NCBI GenBank assembly: GCA_019637915.1
Contig: JAHBUV010000001.1
Span: 2,698,565-2,762,564 of the forward strand
DNA from: Pseudobdellovibrionaceae bacterium
GTDB taxonomy: Bacteria > Bdellovibrionota > Bdellovibrionia > Bdellovibrionales > Bdellovibrionaceae
Direction of reading: 5' to 3'
DNA length: 64,000 nt
The notes below the pieces were generated by a model. The model searched no databases. It saw only the letters and a program-made list of their open reading frames with translations, and was not told where the DNA came from. Position 1 is the first letter of the stretch; each line of letters begins with the position of its first letter. The translations under genes were made by a program, and so were the position numbers. This document shows, in pieces, positions 21,865 through 64,000 of the stretch.

Positions 21865-22637
21865 TGACGGAATGGATCGATCTGCACGCCCATCTGGATA
21901 AATTGCAGGAAGGCCCCGACGAGGCCCTGCGCCTGGCCCGCGAGGCTGGCGTCGCGCGCGTCGTCACCATCGGCACCGATCCCGAGGATCTCGCCGTCGT
22001 GGTGGAGTTGACCCGCCGGCATCCCGGCGTCGTCTACGGCACCCTGGGGATCCATCCTCACGAAGGGGTCAAGTACACGGCGGAGATCGGGCGCTCCATC
22101 GAGCGGCACCTGTCTGAACCCGGCATCATCGCCGTCGGCGAGATCGGGTTGGATTACCACTACGATCAATCGCCCCGCGAAGAACAGCGCCAGGCCTTTC
22201 GCGCCCAGCTCGACATCGCCGCCCGTCACGGCCTGCCGGTGGAGATCCACACCCGCGACGCCGAAGAGGACACGGTCGCGATCCTCAACGAATTTCGTGG
22301 ACGGGTGACGGGCATCATCCACTGTTTCACCGGCACGCGGTGGCTGGCGGAGCGGGCCCTCGATCTGGGGTTCAACATCTCGATCAGCGGCATCGTCACC
22401 TTCAAGAACGCCGAGGCCCTGCGCGACGTCGTGCGCTTCCTGCCCATCGACCGCCTGCACGTCGAAACCGATTCGCCCTTCCTCGCTCCCGTCCCCCTGC
22501 GCGGCAAACAAAACACGCCGGCCTTCATGGTGCACACCGCGAAGTTCGTGGCGGAGTTGAAGGGAATGCCTTTGGATCAGTTCCAGGCCCAGATGCGCGC
22601 CAATGCCCTGCGCATGTTCCCGAAGCTTTCGGGGTAA
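21864..22637 (+). CDS. tatD: TatD family metal-dependent nuclease
   Basis: 257 residues. Metal ligands are seen at His8 and His10 (WIDLHAHLD), in GEIGLDYHY, at the His of PVEIHTRDAEED, in HCFTG and in ETDSPFLAP. Family members are 3'-5' DNases with roles in DNA repair and quality control. The start shares one base with the holB stop. The final codons GGG-TAA lie within the left arm of the large inverted repeat that follows. Confidence 0.93.
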   Translation: MTEWIDLHAHLDKLQEGPDEALRLAREAGVARVVTIGTDPEDLAVVVELTRRHPGVVYGTLGIHPHEGVKYTAEIGRSIERHLSEPGIIAVGEIGLDYHYDQSPREEQRQAFRAQLDIAARHGLPVEIHTRDAEEDTVAILNEFRGRVTGIIHCFTGTRWLAERALDLGFNISISGIVTFKNAEALRDVVRFLPIDRLHVETDSPFLAPVPLRGKQNTPAFMVHTAKFVAELKGMPLDQFQAQMRANALRMFPKLSG

Positions 22638-22687
22638 CAGTTCCCTTTTTGCCGCGCACCGCGCGACAAAAAGGGAACCGTTACCCC
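22631..22687. terminator. Large inverted repeat holding both stop codons of converging genes
   Basis: 26-base arms with two mismatches and a 5-base loop (CACCG). The left outer arm GGGGTAAC contains the tatD TAA and the mirrored right outer arm contains the TAA of the DUF962 gene. Each arm also has a T5/A5 run, so RNA from either strand forms a strong stem. A bidirectional terminator is the simplest reading. Confidence 0.7.
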
Positions 22688-22992
22688 GGGGGGAGTTTGC
22701 CTCTCAGAATCAGAAACCACATTTTGAAGTCGCCGCGCAGGGACCACCACGGGTGGGTGAAGGTGGCGGGGCGGTTTTTTTCGATGAAGAAATGGCCGAC
22801 CCAGGCGAAGGCGTAGCCGCTGACGACGGCGGCGGGCAGTCCCCACCAGAAACCCGTGATCAGGCTGAGGATCAAGATCAGCAAGGACAGGCTGGTGCCG
22901 ATGAAATGCAGACGGCGGCTCAAGGGGTGGCGGTGCTCCCGCAGGTAGTGGGGCCAGAACTCCTCGAAAGTGCGCCAGCGCGGGCTTTCCAT
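22681..22992 (-). CDS. Mpo1-like (DUF962) membrane protein
   Basis: 103 residues. The N-terminal HxHP motif in REHRHPLSRRLHFIGT and the second histidine region GHFFIEKNRP match the Mpo1/DUF962 family. Two or three hydrophobic segments (about 32-46, 49-68) place it in the membrane. Yeast Mpo1 is an iron-dependent 2-hydroxy fatty acid dioxygenase; whether bacterial members share this is inferred from conserved histidines. The chosen ATG has GGAGGG only about three bases upstream, an unusually short spacing, so a start slightly upstream is possible. Confidence 0.75.
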   Translation of the reverse strand: MESPRWRTFEEFWPHYLREHRHPLSRRLHFIGTSLSLLILILSLITGFWWGLPAAVVSGYAFAWVGHFFIEKNRPATFTHPWWSLRGDFKMWFLILRGKLPPG

Positions 22993-45596: not shown

Positions 45597-46952
45597 ATGA
45601 GGCTGATGGTCAGATGCACGACTTTGGTCGTTTCATTGTTTTTCTGCGCGGGCCCGGGCCTCGCATTCGCGGCCGAGCCCGGCGACGCCCTGTCCATCAA
45701 GCTGCCCGTCGAGAAGTACCAGCTGAAGAACGGCCTGACGGTTCTGCTGCTCGAGGACCACACGGTGCCGATGATCAGCTACCACACGTGGTACAAGGTC
45801 GGCTCCCGCGACGAGAAGGAGGGCATCACGGGGTCCGCCCACATGCTGGAGCACATGATGTTTCAGGGCGCGAAGAAGTACGGCGGCAAGGATTTCCACC
45901 GCCTGATGCAGGAAAACGGCATCGAGTGGAACGCCTTCACCACTTACGATTACACCGGTTTCTACATGAACCTGCCTTCGGACAAGATCGATCTGGTCAT
46001 GGACGTCGAGGTGGACCGCATGAGCAGCCTGGCCATCGACGAGAAGAACCTGACCAGCGAGCGCGAGGTCGTCAAGGAGGAGCGCCGCTGGCGCGTCGAC
46101 AACAACCCCACGGGTTTGCTGTTCGAGCTCACCATGTCGACGGTGTTCCGCAAATCGCCCTATCACTGGCCGGTCATCGGCTGGATGAAGGACATCGCCA
46201 AGTACGACCCGAAAACCCTGCGGCACTTCTACGAGACCTACTACGTGCCGAACAACGCGGTCCTGGTCATCGCCGGCGATTTCGACACCGGCAAGATCAA
46301 GAAACAGATCGAGAGCGTTTACGGCGTTCTGCCCTTCCGCGAGGTGCCGCCGCGGGTGAACGCCGCGGAGCCGCCGCAGACCGTGCAGTACAACGCCAAA
46401 TTGCGCAAGGACGTGCAGAGCACCTCGTTCAACGTCGCCTACCAGGGCGTGCCGGAGGGGCATGAGGACATGTACGCGCTGGATCTCGCCGCCACGGCCC
46501 TGGGCGTGGGCAGCTCGAGCCGCCTGAACCGCCGCCTGGTTTACCAGAAGGAAATCGCCACGGGCGCGTCCGCCATGAACTTCGGCATGCAGAACGCGGG
46601 ACTCTTCGGGGTGTCGGTGACGATGAAACCGGGCCTGCCGATGAACGACGCTCTGGATATCGTTTACAACGAAGTCTACAAATTGCGGCAGAAGCCCCTC
46701 AGCGAGGAAGAGCTCAAAAAGGCCCGCACCATCAAGATGAAATCCTTCGTGGACGGTTTGCGCACCATCGACGCCAAGGCCCAGGCCTTGGCGGCGACGG
46801 AGATCATCACGGGTTCCTATGAGAACCTGCTGCGTGACCTGCCGAAGTACGAGAAAGTCACGGCGGCCGACGTGCAGCGCGTGGCGAACAAATACCTGAA
46901 TCAGACGCAAAGATCCATTGTGGTGCTCGAGCCCCGCGGAGGTCAGCCGTGA
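45597..46952 (+). CDS. M16 family zinc protease, catalytic subunit
   Basis: 451 residues with a signal peptide ending in GLAFAAE. The inverted zinc motif HxxEH is His82, Glu85 and His86 (AHMLEHMMFQ), with the second Glu region downstream (EREVVKEER). Mature length equals a standard two-domain M16B subunit. GAAAGGA lies six bases before ATG 45597. It overlaps the next gene (GTGA), which encodes an M16 partner lacking the zinc motif, so the two should form a heterodimeric periplasmic protease of the mitochondrial-processing-peptidase type. Confidence 0.9.
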   Translation: MRLMVRCTTLVVSLFFCAGPGLAFAAEPGDALSIKLPVEKYQLKNGLTVLLLEDHTVPMISYHTWYKVGSRDEKEGITGSAHMLEHMMFQGAKKYGGKDFHRLMQENGIEWNAFTTYDYTGFYMNLPSDKIDLVMDVEVDRMSSLAIDEKNLTSEREVVKEERRWRVDNNPTGLLFELTMSTVFRKSPYHWPVIGWMKDIAKYDPKTLRHFYETYYVPNNAVLVIAGDFDTGKIKKQIESVYGVLPFREVPPRVNAAEPPQTVQYNAKLRKDVQSTSFNVAYQGVPEGHEDMYALDLAATALGVGSSSRLNRRLVYQKEIATGASAMNFGMQNAGLFGVSVTMKPGLPMNDALDIVYNEVYKLRQKPLSEEELKKARTIKMKSFVDGLRTIDAKAQALAATEIITGSYENLLRDLPKYEKVTAADVQRVANKYLNQTQRSIVVLEPRGGQP

Positions 46953-48379
46953 GAACCCTGTTGTTGAGTTCCTTGTCCCTGAGCCTGATCCTGGGCGCGG
47001 GCTGCGCCTCGAAAAAAACCTCGCCGTCGGCGAAGACCGTGAAGTCGTCCTCGGGGGGCATGATGGATTGGTTCCGGGGTTCCGGATTCCGCGTGCGCCC
47101 GTACCGCATCGTCACCCTGAAGAACGGCATGAAGGTGTTTTTCATCCAGGACGACAGTTTGCCGCGGCTGAGCCTGCAGGGTTTGATGAAAACCGGCCTG
47201 CGCGATGAACCGACGGATCTGGCCGGCATCAACTCGATGACCGCGGCCGTCCTGGACCAGGGCACGACGAAGCGGGACGCGATGAAGCTCGCCGGCGATT
47301 TCAACGCTCTGGGAACGGAGTTCGCGGCGGGTCCGGGCCTGGACGGCACTTTCCTTTCGGCGAGCAGTCTCAGCACGGACGCCGACGCGTTGCTGGAATT
47401 GTACGCCGAGGTGCTGATGAATCCCGCCTTCACGCAGAAGGAAGTGGACCGCACCAAGAGCCAGACGGTGGCGGCCCTGCGCCGCAAGGTGGATAACCCC
47501 TCGGGTTACGCCACGGACCTGTATGAGCTGTACCTGTACGGCGCGCATCCTTACGGCCGCGACACCCTGGGTTCCCTGGCGACGGTGAACAAGATCCGCC
47601 GCGCCGACGTCATCCGCCACTATCTGGCGAATTACCGCCCGAACAATTTCACCCTGGCGGTGGTGGGCCGTTTCGACGCGAACTTCGAGCGCAAGGTGGC
47701 CGCGGTTTTCGAACCCTGGGGCGGCCGCGAGATCAAAAAACAAACTGCGGACGTGCCGGCGAACCCGGAGCAGTTGAGCCTGCGTTTCGTGTCCAAAAAA
47801 GGTTTGCAGCAGACGCAGTTGCGTTTGGGCCGCATCGGCGTCACGCGCGACAATCCCGATTACCTGGCTCTGCTGGTGGCCTCCGAAGCCTTCGGCGGCG
47901 GCTTCAGCTCGCGCTTGATGCAGAAAGTGCGGGACGACCTCGGCTTGACCTACTCGATCTCGTCCTCGGTGGACGCGCGCCAGGCGGCGGGTTCTTTCAA
48001 CATCTCCACCTTCACGCGCAACGAGGCCGTGGGCAAAGCCTTGGATGAGATCCTGAAGCTCTACAAAGAGTTCGCCGCGAACGGCATCACCGAAGAGGAG
48101 CTGAAGTCCGCGAAGGCGCAATTGATCGGGCAGTACCCGCGCGGCATCGAGACCGCCGACGGCACGGCCACGGGCCTGGTGCTGCTGGATTTCTATGGGC
48201 GTCCGTTGAGCGACCTCGCCGACTTCCCGAAGAACGTCGCCAAGCTCAGCCTGAAAGACGTGAACGCCGCCATCTCCCGGCACTTCACGCAAGGATCATT
48301 GAAGGTTCTGGTGTTCGGCGACGAAAAAGCCATCGGCACTCAACTGAAAGCAATGAGCCCGGAAACGATCCGCCTCTGA
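46949..48379 (+). CDS. M16 family non-catalytic partner, lipoprotein
   Basis: 476 residues. A lipobox-like ILGAGC near residue 19 marks a likely lipoprotein. The M16 fold is kept (GMKVFFIQDDSLPRLSL at the start, GGFSSRLMQKVRDDLGLTYS near the end, the R/Y pair of the substrate-binding half) but the HxxEH position reads INSMTAAVLDQ, so it cannot bind zinc in the usual way. Starts at a GTG overlapping the catalytic subunit stop, with GGAGG upstream. The stop touches the perfect 39-bp palindrome. Confidence 0.88.
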   Translation: MRTLLLSSLSLSLILGAGCASKKTSPSAKTVKSSSGGMMDWFRGSGFRVRPYRIVTLKNGMKVFFIQDDSLPRLSLQGLMKTGLRDEPTDLAGINSMTAAVLDQGTTKRDAMKLAGDFNALGTEFAAGPGLDGTFLSASSLSTDADALLELYAEVLMNPAFTQKEVDRTKSQTVAALRRKVDNPSGYATDLYELYLYGAHPYGRDTLGSLATVNKIRRADVIRHYLANYRPNNFTLAVVGRFDANFERKVAAVFEPWGGREIKKQTADVPANPEQLSLRFVSKKGLQQTQLRLGRIGVTRDNPDYLALLVASEAFGGGFSSRLMQKVRDDLGLTYSISSSVDARQAAGSFNISTFTRNEAVGKALDEILKLYKEFAANGITEEELKSAKAQLIGQYPRGIETADGTATGLVLLDFYGRPLSDLADFPKNVAKLSLKDVNAAISRHFTQGSLKVLVFGDEKAIGTQLKAMSPETIRL

Positions 48380-48465
48380 AGGTACCGCCTACTTTCTGGT
48401 ACCCCTTCGCGTCACATTTTTTGAAGATGTGACGCGAAGGGGTACCAGAAAGTAGGCGGTACCTT
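48379..48465. terminator. Perfect 39-bp inverted repeat, shared-arm family copy A
   Basis: Left arm 48379-48417 and right arm 48427-48465 are exactly complementary over 39 bp around a 9-base loop (TTTTTGAAG). The outer 23 bases (AAGGTACCGCCTACTTTCTGGTA without its first A starts at 48380) are identical to copy B at 62720-62795; the inner 16 bp differ. It fills the whole space between two converging genes and ends in a short T run on the plus strand. Confidence 0.85.
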
Positions 48466-49197
48466 TTATTTGCGGCGTTTTTTCATGAATAGGTAGCCGC
48501 CGGCGGCGGCCAGGGCGAGGGCGATCAAGACCAAGGGGCCTTTGCCTTTGTTGCCGCTGCCGCCGTCCTGGGTGAGGTCGCCGTCCATCATGTCGGCGGG
48601 CATGCCGGAACCCACTCCGGGGCCGAGCAGGCCTTCGGAGCCCGGACGGATGGGGCCGAGGTCGGGGCGGGATCCCAGGTTTTTCGTGGCGATGACCTTC
48701 AGGCTCATCACGGTTTTGAAGAACTCCTGGCTGTAGCGCGTGTAGTAGTTCTTGTGGGCCGAGAGGGTCACGAGGATGGCGATCTTGTCCTTGATGGTGG
48801 CGAGGTAGCGCGTGAAGTAGTTCGGCACTTCCGAGCCGAGGTGCAGGCCGTCCACCCAGGGCTGGTCGTTGATGCTGACGTTCTTCGCCTTGTAGACGAT
48901 CTTCGATTCGGAGCTGCCCCCGACCTTGGTCTGGAGGGTGATCGGCTTGTTCAGGTACTGCTCGTACAGGGCGAAGCTGTCGGGCGGGCCGACTTCCTTG
49001 GCGGTGAGGATGATGATGGCCTCTTTGGCTTCCTTGCCCTGCTCGGCGCGACACACCCACTCGGTCACTTCCAGGTTGCACTTCCAGTTCTCGGGCATCT
49101 CGAAGGCGATGTAGGCGTTCCGAAAGACTTTGGCCTCGGAGGGAATTGCCGTTAAGATCGGAGCGAAGAAGGCAAGAACGGGCAGAAGTTGTTTCAT
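48466..49197 (-). CDS. Secreted, membrane-anchored protein, unknown function
   Basis: 243 residues. A signal peptide (MKQLLPVLAFFAPILTAIPSEA) leads to a domain of about 150 residues with two cysteines (WKCNLEV, WVCRAEQ) and IIILTAKEVGPPDSF. A Gly/Asp/Met-rich linker then precedes a C-terminal hydrophobic segment (GPLVLIALALAAAGGYLFM) and a basic tail, so the domain hangs in the periplasm. AGAGGT lies before the ATG. It is divergent from the LysR gene with 76 bases between starts, which could make it that regulator's target. Confidence 0.7.
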   Translation of the reverse strand: MKQLLPVLAFFAPILTAIPSEAKVFRNAYIAFEMPENWKCNLEVTEWVCRAEQGKEAKEAIIILTAKEVGPPDSFALYEQYLNKPITLQTKVGGSSESKIVYKAKNVSINDQPWVDGLHLGSEVPNYFTRYLATIKDKIAILVTLSAHKNYYTRYSQEFFKTVMSLKVIATKNLGSRPDLGPIRPGSEGLLGPGVGSGMPADMMDGDLTQDGGSGNKGKGPLVLIALALAAAGGYLFMKKRRK

Positions 49198-50240: not shown

Positions 50241-50359
50241 GCCTGTCGCGGGGCCCGGGGGGTTTCAACGCGAGTTCGGCTTTGGCGCGACTTTGCGAAC
50301 GCAAAGGCGTGCCAAAACGCATGTCTGAGCGTTGGAACCCCCCGGGCCCCGCGACAGGC
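50241..50359. repeat. 119-base palindrome between convergent genes
   Basis: Outer arms 50241-50271 and 50329-50359 are complementary over 31 bases with one G-T pair. Inside, TTTGGCGCG/CGTGCCAAA and CTTTGCG/CGCAAAG extend the stem to near a two-base loop. The space between the LysR and ppsR stops contains nothing else besides the pyrimidine tract. It could be a bidirectional terminator or a structured RNA. Confidence 0.75.
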
Positions 50360-61658: not shown

Positions 61659-62717
61659 ATGGTTCATGACTTGAGTCCTTTTATCCTGCGTTTTTCCGAC
61701 GACTTCGGCCTGCGATGGTATGGTTTTTCCTACGTGCTGGGCTTCATCGCGGCCTACTTCATGATGGTGTGGCTGGTGCAGCGCCAGCGCGCCGGCCTCA
61801 GCAAAGACCAGATCGGCGATTTCATCACCTACATCGCTTTCGGCACCCTGATCGGCGGCCGTCTCGGTTATGTGCTGTTCTACAGCCCGGATCTGCTGTG
61901 GAAGTTCAAGGCCGACTTTCCCTTCTGGGGCGTGCTGGCCGTCAATGAAGGCGGCATGGCCTCCCACGGCGGCATGATCGGGATCGTCGTCGCCTGCTTG
62001 CTCTTCGCTCGCCGCAGTGGCGTCTCGAGTTTGTACCTCTTCGACCTCTGCGCCTTGTCCGGTCCCATCGGGATTTTCTTCGGTCGCCTGGCGAACTTCA
62101 TCAATGGTGAATTGGTCGGCCGCCCGGCGCCGCCGGATTTCCCCTTGGCGGTGAAATTTCCCCAAGACATCGTGATGTGGCCCACTCAGGAATTCGACCG
62201 CCTGCGCGGCCTGGCCCCGGTGACGGATCAGCTGGGCGTCACTTCCAATCAGTGGATGGAGTGGCTCGACAAGTACCGTTTCGACGCCGGCATCCGCGAT
62301 CAGGTCTATGGCACCTTGAACCGCATCATTCACGAGATTCAGAACGGCAACACGGCGGTCAAAGAGGCCATCGCGCCCTTGCTGACCCCTCGCCATCCGT
62401 CGCAACTTTATGCGGCTTTCGGGGAGGGCCTGTTCCTGTTCGTCGTGCTGTTCTTCCTGTGGCGCTCGCCGCGCAAGCCGGGGTTCATCTCTTCGGCCTT
62501 CGTCATTCTCTACGCCATGGTTCGCATCGCCGACGAGTTCTTCCGGACTCCCGATGCGCACATCGGCTTTCAGCTCTTCGGCCTCACGCGCGGGCAGTGG
62601 CTGAGCGTCGCCATGATGGGAGTGGGGATCGTCCTCATGATCTGGTGGGGGCGGTCGGCGACCATGACCATTCCCGGGTGGGGGCGCGCTCGCTCTGTGC
62701 GCATCAACCGGCGTTGA
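61659..62717 (+). CDS. lgt: Prolipoprotein diacylglyceryl transferase
   Basis: 352 residues, seven membrane helices. ASHGGMIG (101-108) with catalytic His103, the signature GRLANFINGELVGRP (142 onward) with Arg143, and PRHPSQLYAAFGEG fit Lgt. It adds diacylglycerol to lipobox cysteines in the inner membrane. It is about 60 residues longer than the E. coli enzyme; most of the extra lies between GRP and PRHPSQ. ATG 61659 has only a distant AAGGCGG, so the start is slightly uncertain. Its stop lies two bases before a 76-bp perfect palindrome. Confidence 0.93.
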   Translation: MVHDLSPFILRFSDDFGLRWYGFSYVLGFIAAYFMMVWLVQRQRAGLSKDQIGDFITYIAFGTLIGGRLGYVLFYSPDLLWKFKADFPFWGVLAVNEGGMASHGGMIGIVVACLLFARRSGVSSLYLFDLCALSGPIGIFFGRLANFINGELVGRPAPPDFPLAVKFPQDIVMWPTQEFDRLRGLAPVTDQLGVTSNQWMEWLDKYRFDAGIRDQVYGTLNRIIHEIQNGNTAVKEAIAPLLTPRHPSQLYAAFGEGLFLFVVLFFLWRSPRKPGFISSAFVILYAMVRIADEFFRTPDAHIGFQLFGLTRGQWLSVAMMGVGIVLMIWWGRSATMTIPGWGRARSVRINRR

Positions 62718-62719
62718 CG

Positions 62720-62795
62720 AAAGGTACCGCCTACTTTCTGGTATCACGGCGCGCCATATGGCGCGCCGTGATACCAGAAAGTAGGCGGTACCTTT
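62720..62795. terminator. Perfect 76-bp palindrome without loop, shared-arm family copy B
   Basis: Each half is 38 bases (62720-62757 and 62758-62795) and the halves are exact reverse complements meeting at CCAT/ATGG. The outer arm shares 23 bases with copy A at 48379-48465; the inner part (CACGGCGCGCC) is different. It fills the space between the converging lgt and hisS genes. Confidence 0.85.
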
Positions 62796-62801
62796 TGCCT
62801 T

Positions 62802-64000
62802 TTAGCGGAAGTTGAAGTTTTTGAGTTCGGGGCGGGGGATGGTTTTTTGTTCGCCGGTGCTGAGGTTTTTCAGGGCGAACTGGGCGGTTTCGACTTCGGT
62901 GGTGCCGAGGATGAGGGCCCATTGGGCGCCGGCGTTGTTGGCTTTTTTCATTTTTTTGCCGACGTTGCCGGAAGAGAAGATCTCGACCCGTTCGCCTTTT
63001 TGGCGGAGCTCGTGGGCCACCTTCAGGCTTTCTTTTTCGCCGGCTTCGTCGGCCGGGATCAGGGCGATCAAGGGTGAGTCCTTCGGGAGCTTGGTTTTGT
63101 CCAGGAGGTCGGCCAGGCGGTCGATGCCCGCGGCCCAGCCGACGCCGGGCGTGCGGGGGCCGCCCATCATTTCGATCAGGCCGTCGTAGCGGCCGCCGGC
63201 CAGCACCGTGCCCTGGGCACCCAAACGGTCGGTCGTGAATTCGAAAACAGTGTGGTTGTAGTAATCGAGGCCGCGCACTAGACGCTGGTTCAGTGTGTAG
63301 GAAATCCCGAGGTCCTTGAGGCCTTGCAGCACCCGCGCGAAGAATTTTTTCGACTCTTCGTTCAGGCACTCCTCGAAAGACGGGGCGCCGGCGATCAGGC
63401 GGCGGTCGCCTTCGTCCTTCGAGTCGAGGATGCGCAGCGGGTTTTTTTCCAGGCGCGTCCGGCTGTCTTGGCTCAGGCTCGCCTTGTGGGGCGTGAAATA
63501 AGCCACCAGCTGGTCGCGGTAAGCCTGACGCGAAGCCGGGTCGCCCAGGGTGTTGATTTCCAATTGCACCTCGCCGCCCAAACCCAGGGCCTGCAAGAGG
63601 TCGTGGGCCAGGGCCAGGCATTCGACGTCGGCCAAAGGGGTTTCCAAGCCCAGGCACTCGACACCGAGCTGCTGGAATTGGCGGTAGCGCCCCTTCTGCG
63701 GACGCTCGTAACGGAACATCGGACCGGAGTAGTACAAACGCAAAGGCAGGTTCTGGGCCAAACCCTCGCTCACGAAAGCGCGGGCGACGCCGGCGGTCCC
63801 TTCCGGGCGCAGGGTCAATTTGTCGCCGCCGCGGTCCTCGAAGTTGTAGGTCTCTTTGCTGACCACGTCGGAGGTCTCGCCCATGCGGTGGAACACCTCG
63901 GAAAACTCGAAGATCGGGGTCTCGATCTCGCCGTAGCCGTAACGACGGGCGATCTGAAAGGCCGTTTCGTCGACGAAACGAAAACTCTTCTTGTCTTCAG
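62802..64000 (-). CDS. hisS: Histidyl-tRNA synthetase (5' end beyond window)
   Basis: 398 residues are visible; the N terminus (perhaps 15-25 residues) lies past the right edge. Class II motif 1 region ([12 protein letters not shown]), motif 2 ([18 protein letters not shown]), the HisA motifs [15 protein letters not shown] and LAGGRYDGL, motif 3 ([11 protein letters not shown]) and the C-terminal anticodon-binding domain are present. It charges tRNA-His. The visible start of the frame at the edge reads [11 protein letters not shown]. Its stop is six bases from the 76-bp palindrome. Confidence 0.95.

Follow-up and report, generated by a model that had tools for sequence, protein, structure and literature searches.

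The 64,000-nt window analyzed here (C1:2698565-2762564 of a 3.32-Mb genome) contains two long palindromes, each lying between the ends of two convergent genes. Their components and neighboring genes, in window positions, are as follows.

46949-48379, plus strand: M16-family peptidase gene, whose TGA stop overlaps the first base of copy 1
48379-48465, no strand: F1 palindromic element copy 1, with arms at 48379-48417 and 48427-48465
48379-48401, plus strand: shared terminal arm of copy 1, AAGGTACCGCCTACTTTCTGGTA, the outer part of which (GAAGGTA-CCGCC-TACTTTC) is a small REP-like hairpin
48402-48442, no strand: copy-specific, self-complementary inner part of copy 1 (beginning CCCCTTCGCGTCACAT)
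48466-49197, minus strand: convergent gene, family unassigned, with its TAA stop immediately 3' of copy 1
61659-62717, plus strand: lgt (prolipoprotein diacylglyceryl transferase), with its stop 5 nt upstream of the copy 2 GGTACC
62720-62795, no strand: F1 element copy 2, perfect and spacerless, with arms at 62720-62757 and 62758-62795
62802-63998, minus strand: hisS (histidyl-tRNA synthetase), reaching the window edge, with its stop 9 nt past the copy 2 GGTACC

Direct reading of the sequence found the arms of copy 1 to be exactly complementary over 39 bp, with a stem that extends to 42 nt at 98% around a 3-nt center, and copy 2 to be a perfect 38-bp palindrome with a spacer of 0. The first 23 bases (AAGGTACCGCCTACTTTCTGGTA) are common to both copies, and the inner parts are unrelated. 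A 20-mer from the arm occurs four times in the window, in these four arms only, and had 0 matches at up to 3 mismatches in 100 dinucleotide shuffles of the window. Both hairpins have a folding energy of about -80 kcal/mol on either strand (z about -18). These readings bear out a first-pass annotation of the window, which had described a perfect 39-bp hairpin sharing its outer 23 bases with a second copy, and inner arms unrelated between copies yet each self-complementary. Two other inverted repeats were seen between convergent gene ends in the window: a long imperfect hairpin at 22630-22688 (28-nt arms, 93%; beginning CGGGGTAACAGTTCCC), which is possibly a further repeat family, and a 31-bp inverted repeat at 50241-50359 (97%) with 57 nt separating its arms.

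The annotation had also suspected a dispersed repeat family, and a pattern search of the whole genome found not just two copies but 20 loci of this family, designated F1, which lie at gene ends rather than at random inside and outside genes. They comprise 16 two-armed elements of 53-1004 bp and 4 one-armed remnants, all bearing the common end GAAGGTACCGCCTACTTTCTGGTA or close variants, and hold 36 arms of one end of about 23 bp, arranged head-to-head in 16 of the 20 loci. The two-armed elements measure 53, 53, 53, 70, 83, 88, 90, 101, 112, 123, 123, 130, 141, 190, 833 and 1004 bp. A search with the arm at 3 mismatches returned noise beyond 1 mismatch (controls 27 and 34 versus 24 and 19). The end consensus is GAAGGTACCGCCTACTTTCTGGTAYCCCnnyGCGTCA, of which the last dozen positions are variable. 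Its outermost 19 nt form the small GAAGGTA-CCGCC-TACTTTC hairpin, which is clearly better on one strand, includes one G-U pair and is only -4 kcal/mol, weak by z-score. The two 123-bp elements have an identical core in opposite orientation, which is what an element able to lie in either direction would give.

One F1 copy encloses a transposase, and a second transposase of the same type lies between the ends of another repeat family, F2.

C1:2222577-2223409 (L040:2578-3410): 833-bp F1 element enclosing a RAYT-like Y1 transposase, with F1 ends on both sides
L077:2251-2889: second RAYT, 37% identical to the L040 RAYT, between F2 ends (AAGGTGCCAGGTCC)

The open frame in the F1 element encodes 231 aa (start at L040:2739; C1:2222738-2223430) and carries an HUH motif (SNHYHLLL) and a tyrosine region (YIYRNPV) that align with those of E. 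coli TnpAREP, PDB 4er8, its sole relative of known structure. Its only Pfam domain is Y1_Tnp (PF01797, 2e-7), and it matches NCBIfam REP_Tyr_transpos at 3e-15, below the equivalog cut-off. F2 has its own ends (AAGGTGCCAGGTCC) at about 20 loci, mostly dimers of 53-57 bp, and is cognate to the second RAYT. The first-pass annotation, made from the window alone, had recognized the repeat family; the enclosed RAYT and the second RAYT family lay beyond its view. A divergent gene has its ATG 1 nt from the left end of the F1 RAYT element (L040:2570-2580), and the AGGCGG of the repeat could serve it as a ribosome-binding site.

Because one F1 copy encloses a RAYT-type transposase, we read the hairpins as parts of a mobile element, and they probably belong, as non-autonomous members, to a family of mobile palindromes that uses RAYT ends (TIRtron/REPtron, with REPIN-like dimers). 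Several other signatures were sought. GTAG, a hallmark of classical REPs, is absent from the 5' foot of the F1 hairpin and is confined to the complementary strand within the stem; the F2 ends also lack it, and no GGGGWSAS motif was found in the F1 or F2 ends as read. Inspection by eye of the flanks of the 16 paired F1 elements showed no direct repeat indicative of target-site duplication. An Rfam search of the palindromes gave only chance matches on perfect hairpins, below the gathering score, and a promoter/terminator scan gave results near shuffled expectation. Empty sites were sought in G001, the only other genome of the genus, which was compared via concatenated flank proteins; orthologous gene ends there have no F1 element, but the two genomes are too diverged outside genes for the intergenic DNA at these sites to be aligned.

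Placement of F1 relative to stop codons is exact. With gene ends called by a codon-usage script, on which all placement figures depend, a stop codon lies 0-2 nt from the GGTACC or overlaps it in 14 of 20 loci and lies within 13 nt in 19 of 20, compared with 1.5% and 5.9%, respectively, of non-coding positions in the same regions. The sole locus without a stop within 13 nt is the RAYT copy, which sits beside a start codon. Seven of the 20 loci lie between convergent pairs, 12 are tandem beside the stop of one gene and one, the RAYT copy, is divergent. The placement rule is therefore the stop codon rather than convergence, so that the annotation was right in placing the family at gene ends and too narrow in making these ends convergent. 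Two other accounts were rejected. That abutment is a mere effect of tiny convergent gaps does not hold at six loci with 65-510 bp free downstream (L035 and L041-L045), where the copies are still at the stop with gaps of -1 to 7 nt. That insertion creates the stop codons was rejected for most loci: in most cases compared, G001 orthologues end at the same residue (the exceptions being pth, enolase and two others, which are one residue shorter), and the stops are thus native.

The abutment may reflect insertion targeting, with the transposase, or its access to single-stranded DNA, favoring the site just after a stop codon, a serious possibility to which we nevertheless assign slightly less than even weight. 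The excess over non-coding positions at 0-2 nt, its persistence where there is free space downstream, the native origin of the stops in most cases tested and a similar stop-codon tendency of F2 and of the copies in the order relative G047 all speak for targeting. On the other hand, the stops at F1 copies are TGA, TAA or TAG and the offset shifts by 1-3 nt, a pattern that does not fit any fixed sequence motif, and purifying selection in a very compact genome could purge insertions elsewhere. REPs in other bacteria, moreover, have been described in convergent positions less than 20 bp from both flanking ORFs, with some REP termini supplying a TAG stop (Di Nocera et al. 2013, PMC3733652). The gene-end tendency is hence already known, and the near-zero gap is sharper in F1 than reported for REPs.

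The arms of individual copies have changed together. At positions 24-35, beyond the common end, the two arms are identical at 12/12 positions in L034, L036, L037 and both window copies, at 11/12 in the 1004-bp copy and at 5-9/12 in other long-core copies (permutation p about 5e-5 when arms are shuffled among F1 copies). Most long-core copies have no complementarity beyond 21-25 bp, whereas short-core copies are perfect, with inner arms that differ between copies. In several palindromic copies both ends carry an identical variant, as though one had served as template for the other, and in L036, whose core is not palindromic, the arms share 36 identical bases, including family-unique variants. 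Among F2 dimers, 26 double changes are compensated and 9 changes are single, with no G-U pair on the strand read. B. bacteriovorus shows no arm homogenization, and G047 shows it weakly.

This pattern, as read from the sequences, favors arm-to-arm copying, by template switching or hairpin repair, over independent mutation; published work supports the idea that template switching can generate perfect stems (Monttinen and Loytynoja 2022, PMC8794818). We consider it rather unlikely that selection for RNA or DNA pairing instead kept the inner arms complementary base by base. REPINs often show compensatory changes (Bertels and Rainey 2011, PMC3116915), and pairing selection on both strands would exclude G-U pairs; such selection is harder to reconcile with inner arms that are specific to each copy over multiple bases and pair perfectly up to the loop, with the largely bimodal division into perfect short cores and unpaired long cores, and with several compensated changes within one F2 copy. 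The annotation had invoked either selection or template switching to maintain the palindromes; its premise of non-independent change is upheld, and of its two options the pattern leans toward arm copying.

It is unlikely that the palindromes are strong bidirectional intrinsic terminators perfected by selection for RNA pairing at gene ends: they do fold stably on both strands, have stops adjoining both sides at the 7 convergent pairs and are followed in some copies by TTTT (T-run of 3-4), but many are followed by TTC rather than a T-run, a transposase and other genes lie between the same ends, the interior of long-core copies is unpaired, so that full pairing is not required, independent origin would not give a common 23-bp arm, and the half-elements L035 and L044 lie between a stop codon and a separate, ordinary terminator-like hairpin, so that termination is not the reason for every copy.

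Under the mobile-family reading, RAYT would recognize the folded, single-stranded F1 end (GAAGGTACCGCCTACTTTC; GAAGGTACCGCCTACTTTCTGG), and the element would move via a single-stranded hairpin. After insertion, the replication fork may switch templates within the strand, or the folded hairpin may be repaired; either would homogenize the arms and turn short-core copies into perfect palindromes of copy-specific sequence. Retained copies might then insulate neighboring genes as bidirectional transcript-end hairpins; this is the least certain step, and is plausible given the fold and the sites. REPs near stops have also been reported to stall ribosomes (PMC12306157).

Comparable RAYT elements occur in relatives, where RAYT loci lie between inverted repeats, mostly of the form AGGTnCC..CTTTT, in 25 of 30 cases, and in named lineages in 38 of 54. 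The closest named RAYT relatives are nearly all Bdellovibrionota, including Bdellovibrio, Bacteriovorax and Halobacteriovorax. In the G047 genome, GGTACCGCCTACATTT or a closely similar sequence occurs about 27 times, mostly as 54-bp dimers, one of them beside the RAYT of that genome. Bdellovibrio bacteriovorus kdesi contains GGTACGGACTTACTTATGG, with up to 3 mismatches allowed, at 35 sites, among them both ends of a RAYT element, and dimers of a similar kind occur in both genomes. In G001, an F2-like end (GGGTGCCAGGTCCTGTTTGCGG) follows the pstB stop (L112:1500-1560, minus strand), and the pstB gene end of the window's genome bears the F1 passenger element. G001 also has a foldback repeat family of its own, not present in the window's genome, for which no Rfam family was found.

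L213, L217, L219, L222-L224, L113 and L262-L277: loci of the G001 foldback repeat family

Eighteen copies of this family were measured, and the genome has 26 pattern matches. They have a conserved asymmetric middle (beginning GACATCCGGGAAGCGTGACGCG and ending CATAGCTCAAGGACGAGCGGGTC) and, in most copies, outer arms of 42-72 bp that are about 95% or more complementary and are largely unrelated between copies (mean score 48 within and 9 between copies).

RAYTs are usually described as dispersing only tiny REPs and REPINs. Among 190 genes tested in the retrieved regions, only three, all unrelated to transposition, are flanked by matched repeats.

L046:2493-3496 (C1:3198492-3199495): YcaC-like isochorismatase-family gene between matched F1 ends, 1004 bp, with a nested F2 palindrome
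L107:1340-2020 (C1:2805738-2806418): GNAT acetyltransferase gene flanked by F2 ends of about 45 bp, 677 bp
L104:1328-2165 (C1:1502230-1503061): DUF2239 gene with an F2 end on one side and an F2 dimer on the other

All three lie behind stop codons. The GNAT element is 2 nt from each of two convergent stops, that of a folE-like gene on one side and that of an aminopeptidase-like gene on the other, and the DUF2239 element lies behind one stop and ahead of another. The isochorismatase and GNAT genes are rare in relatives and missing from G001, a pattern expected of laterally acquired genes. In relatives, homologues of the passengers have no flanking inverted repeats, and no description of passenger genes in RAYT elements was found in the part of the open literature covered. 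We tentatively propose, while considering it somewhat doubtful, that the RAYT/TIR system inserts specifically behind stops and moves passengers as single-gene cassettes, leaving the host gene unharmed.

Among known systems, MITEs resemble F1 in being short, non-autonomous elements that keep the terminal inverted repeats of a complete one. DDE transposases drive the best-studied MITEs, whereas the parent enzyme of F1 is Y1/HUH and no target-site duplication was seen. Perfect RNA stems attributed to template switching (PMC8794818) are likewise apparently maintained by arm copying, but the F1 stems are members of a repeat family with a common outer arm. REPINs and REPtrons (PMC3116915; Nunvar 2010, PMC2817692) share with F1 inverted pairs of hairpin ends, a variable spacer with compensatory changes, a cognate RAYT flanked by the same ends and extragenic sites at gene 3' ends. 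F1 has several of the features that mark a REPIN or GTAG REPtron, namely a RAYT with HUH and catalytic tyrosine, inverted flanking repeats, an imperfect-palindrome unit and inverted dimers; it differs in its copy number (about 20 loci, against hundreds for REPINs), in lacking a GTAG foot (the REPIN criterion being GTAG or GTGG), and in having spacers of 0 to about 950 bp and a stop codon mostly within 2 nt. TIRtrons (PMC3733652), for which a C-terminal helix-turn-helix of subclass 2.1 is a further criterion (PMC6006769), likewise have a RAYT-like Y1 transposase (TIRYT) within non-GTAG TIRs and repeats also dispersed as dimers. F1 departs from them in its repeat sequence, in lacking GGGGWSAS (a motif of some, not all, TIRtrons), and in its copy-specific perfect inner arms and passenger genes, and no Bdellovibrio is included in the study by Di Nocera et al.

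F1 and F2 are thus a Bdellovibrionota version of the RAYT/TIR palindrome system, in which the exact stop abutment and the apparent passenger genes are new. A Bdellovibrionota clade that combines several RAYT/TIR families with such placement and such passengers would offer a natural system for testing RAYT site choice and whether RAYTs move genes. The F1 copies, with paired short cores and mostly unpaired long cores, are a natural record of how palindromes stay perfect, and this contrast within one element allows a direct test, by comparing strains, of template switching against selection.
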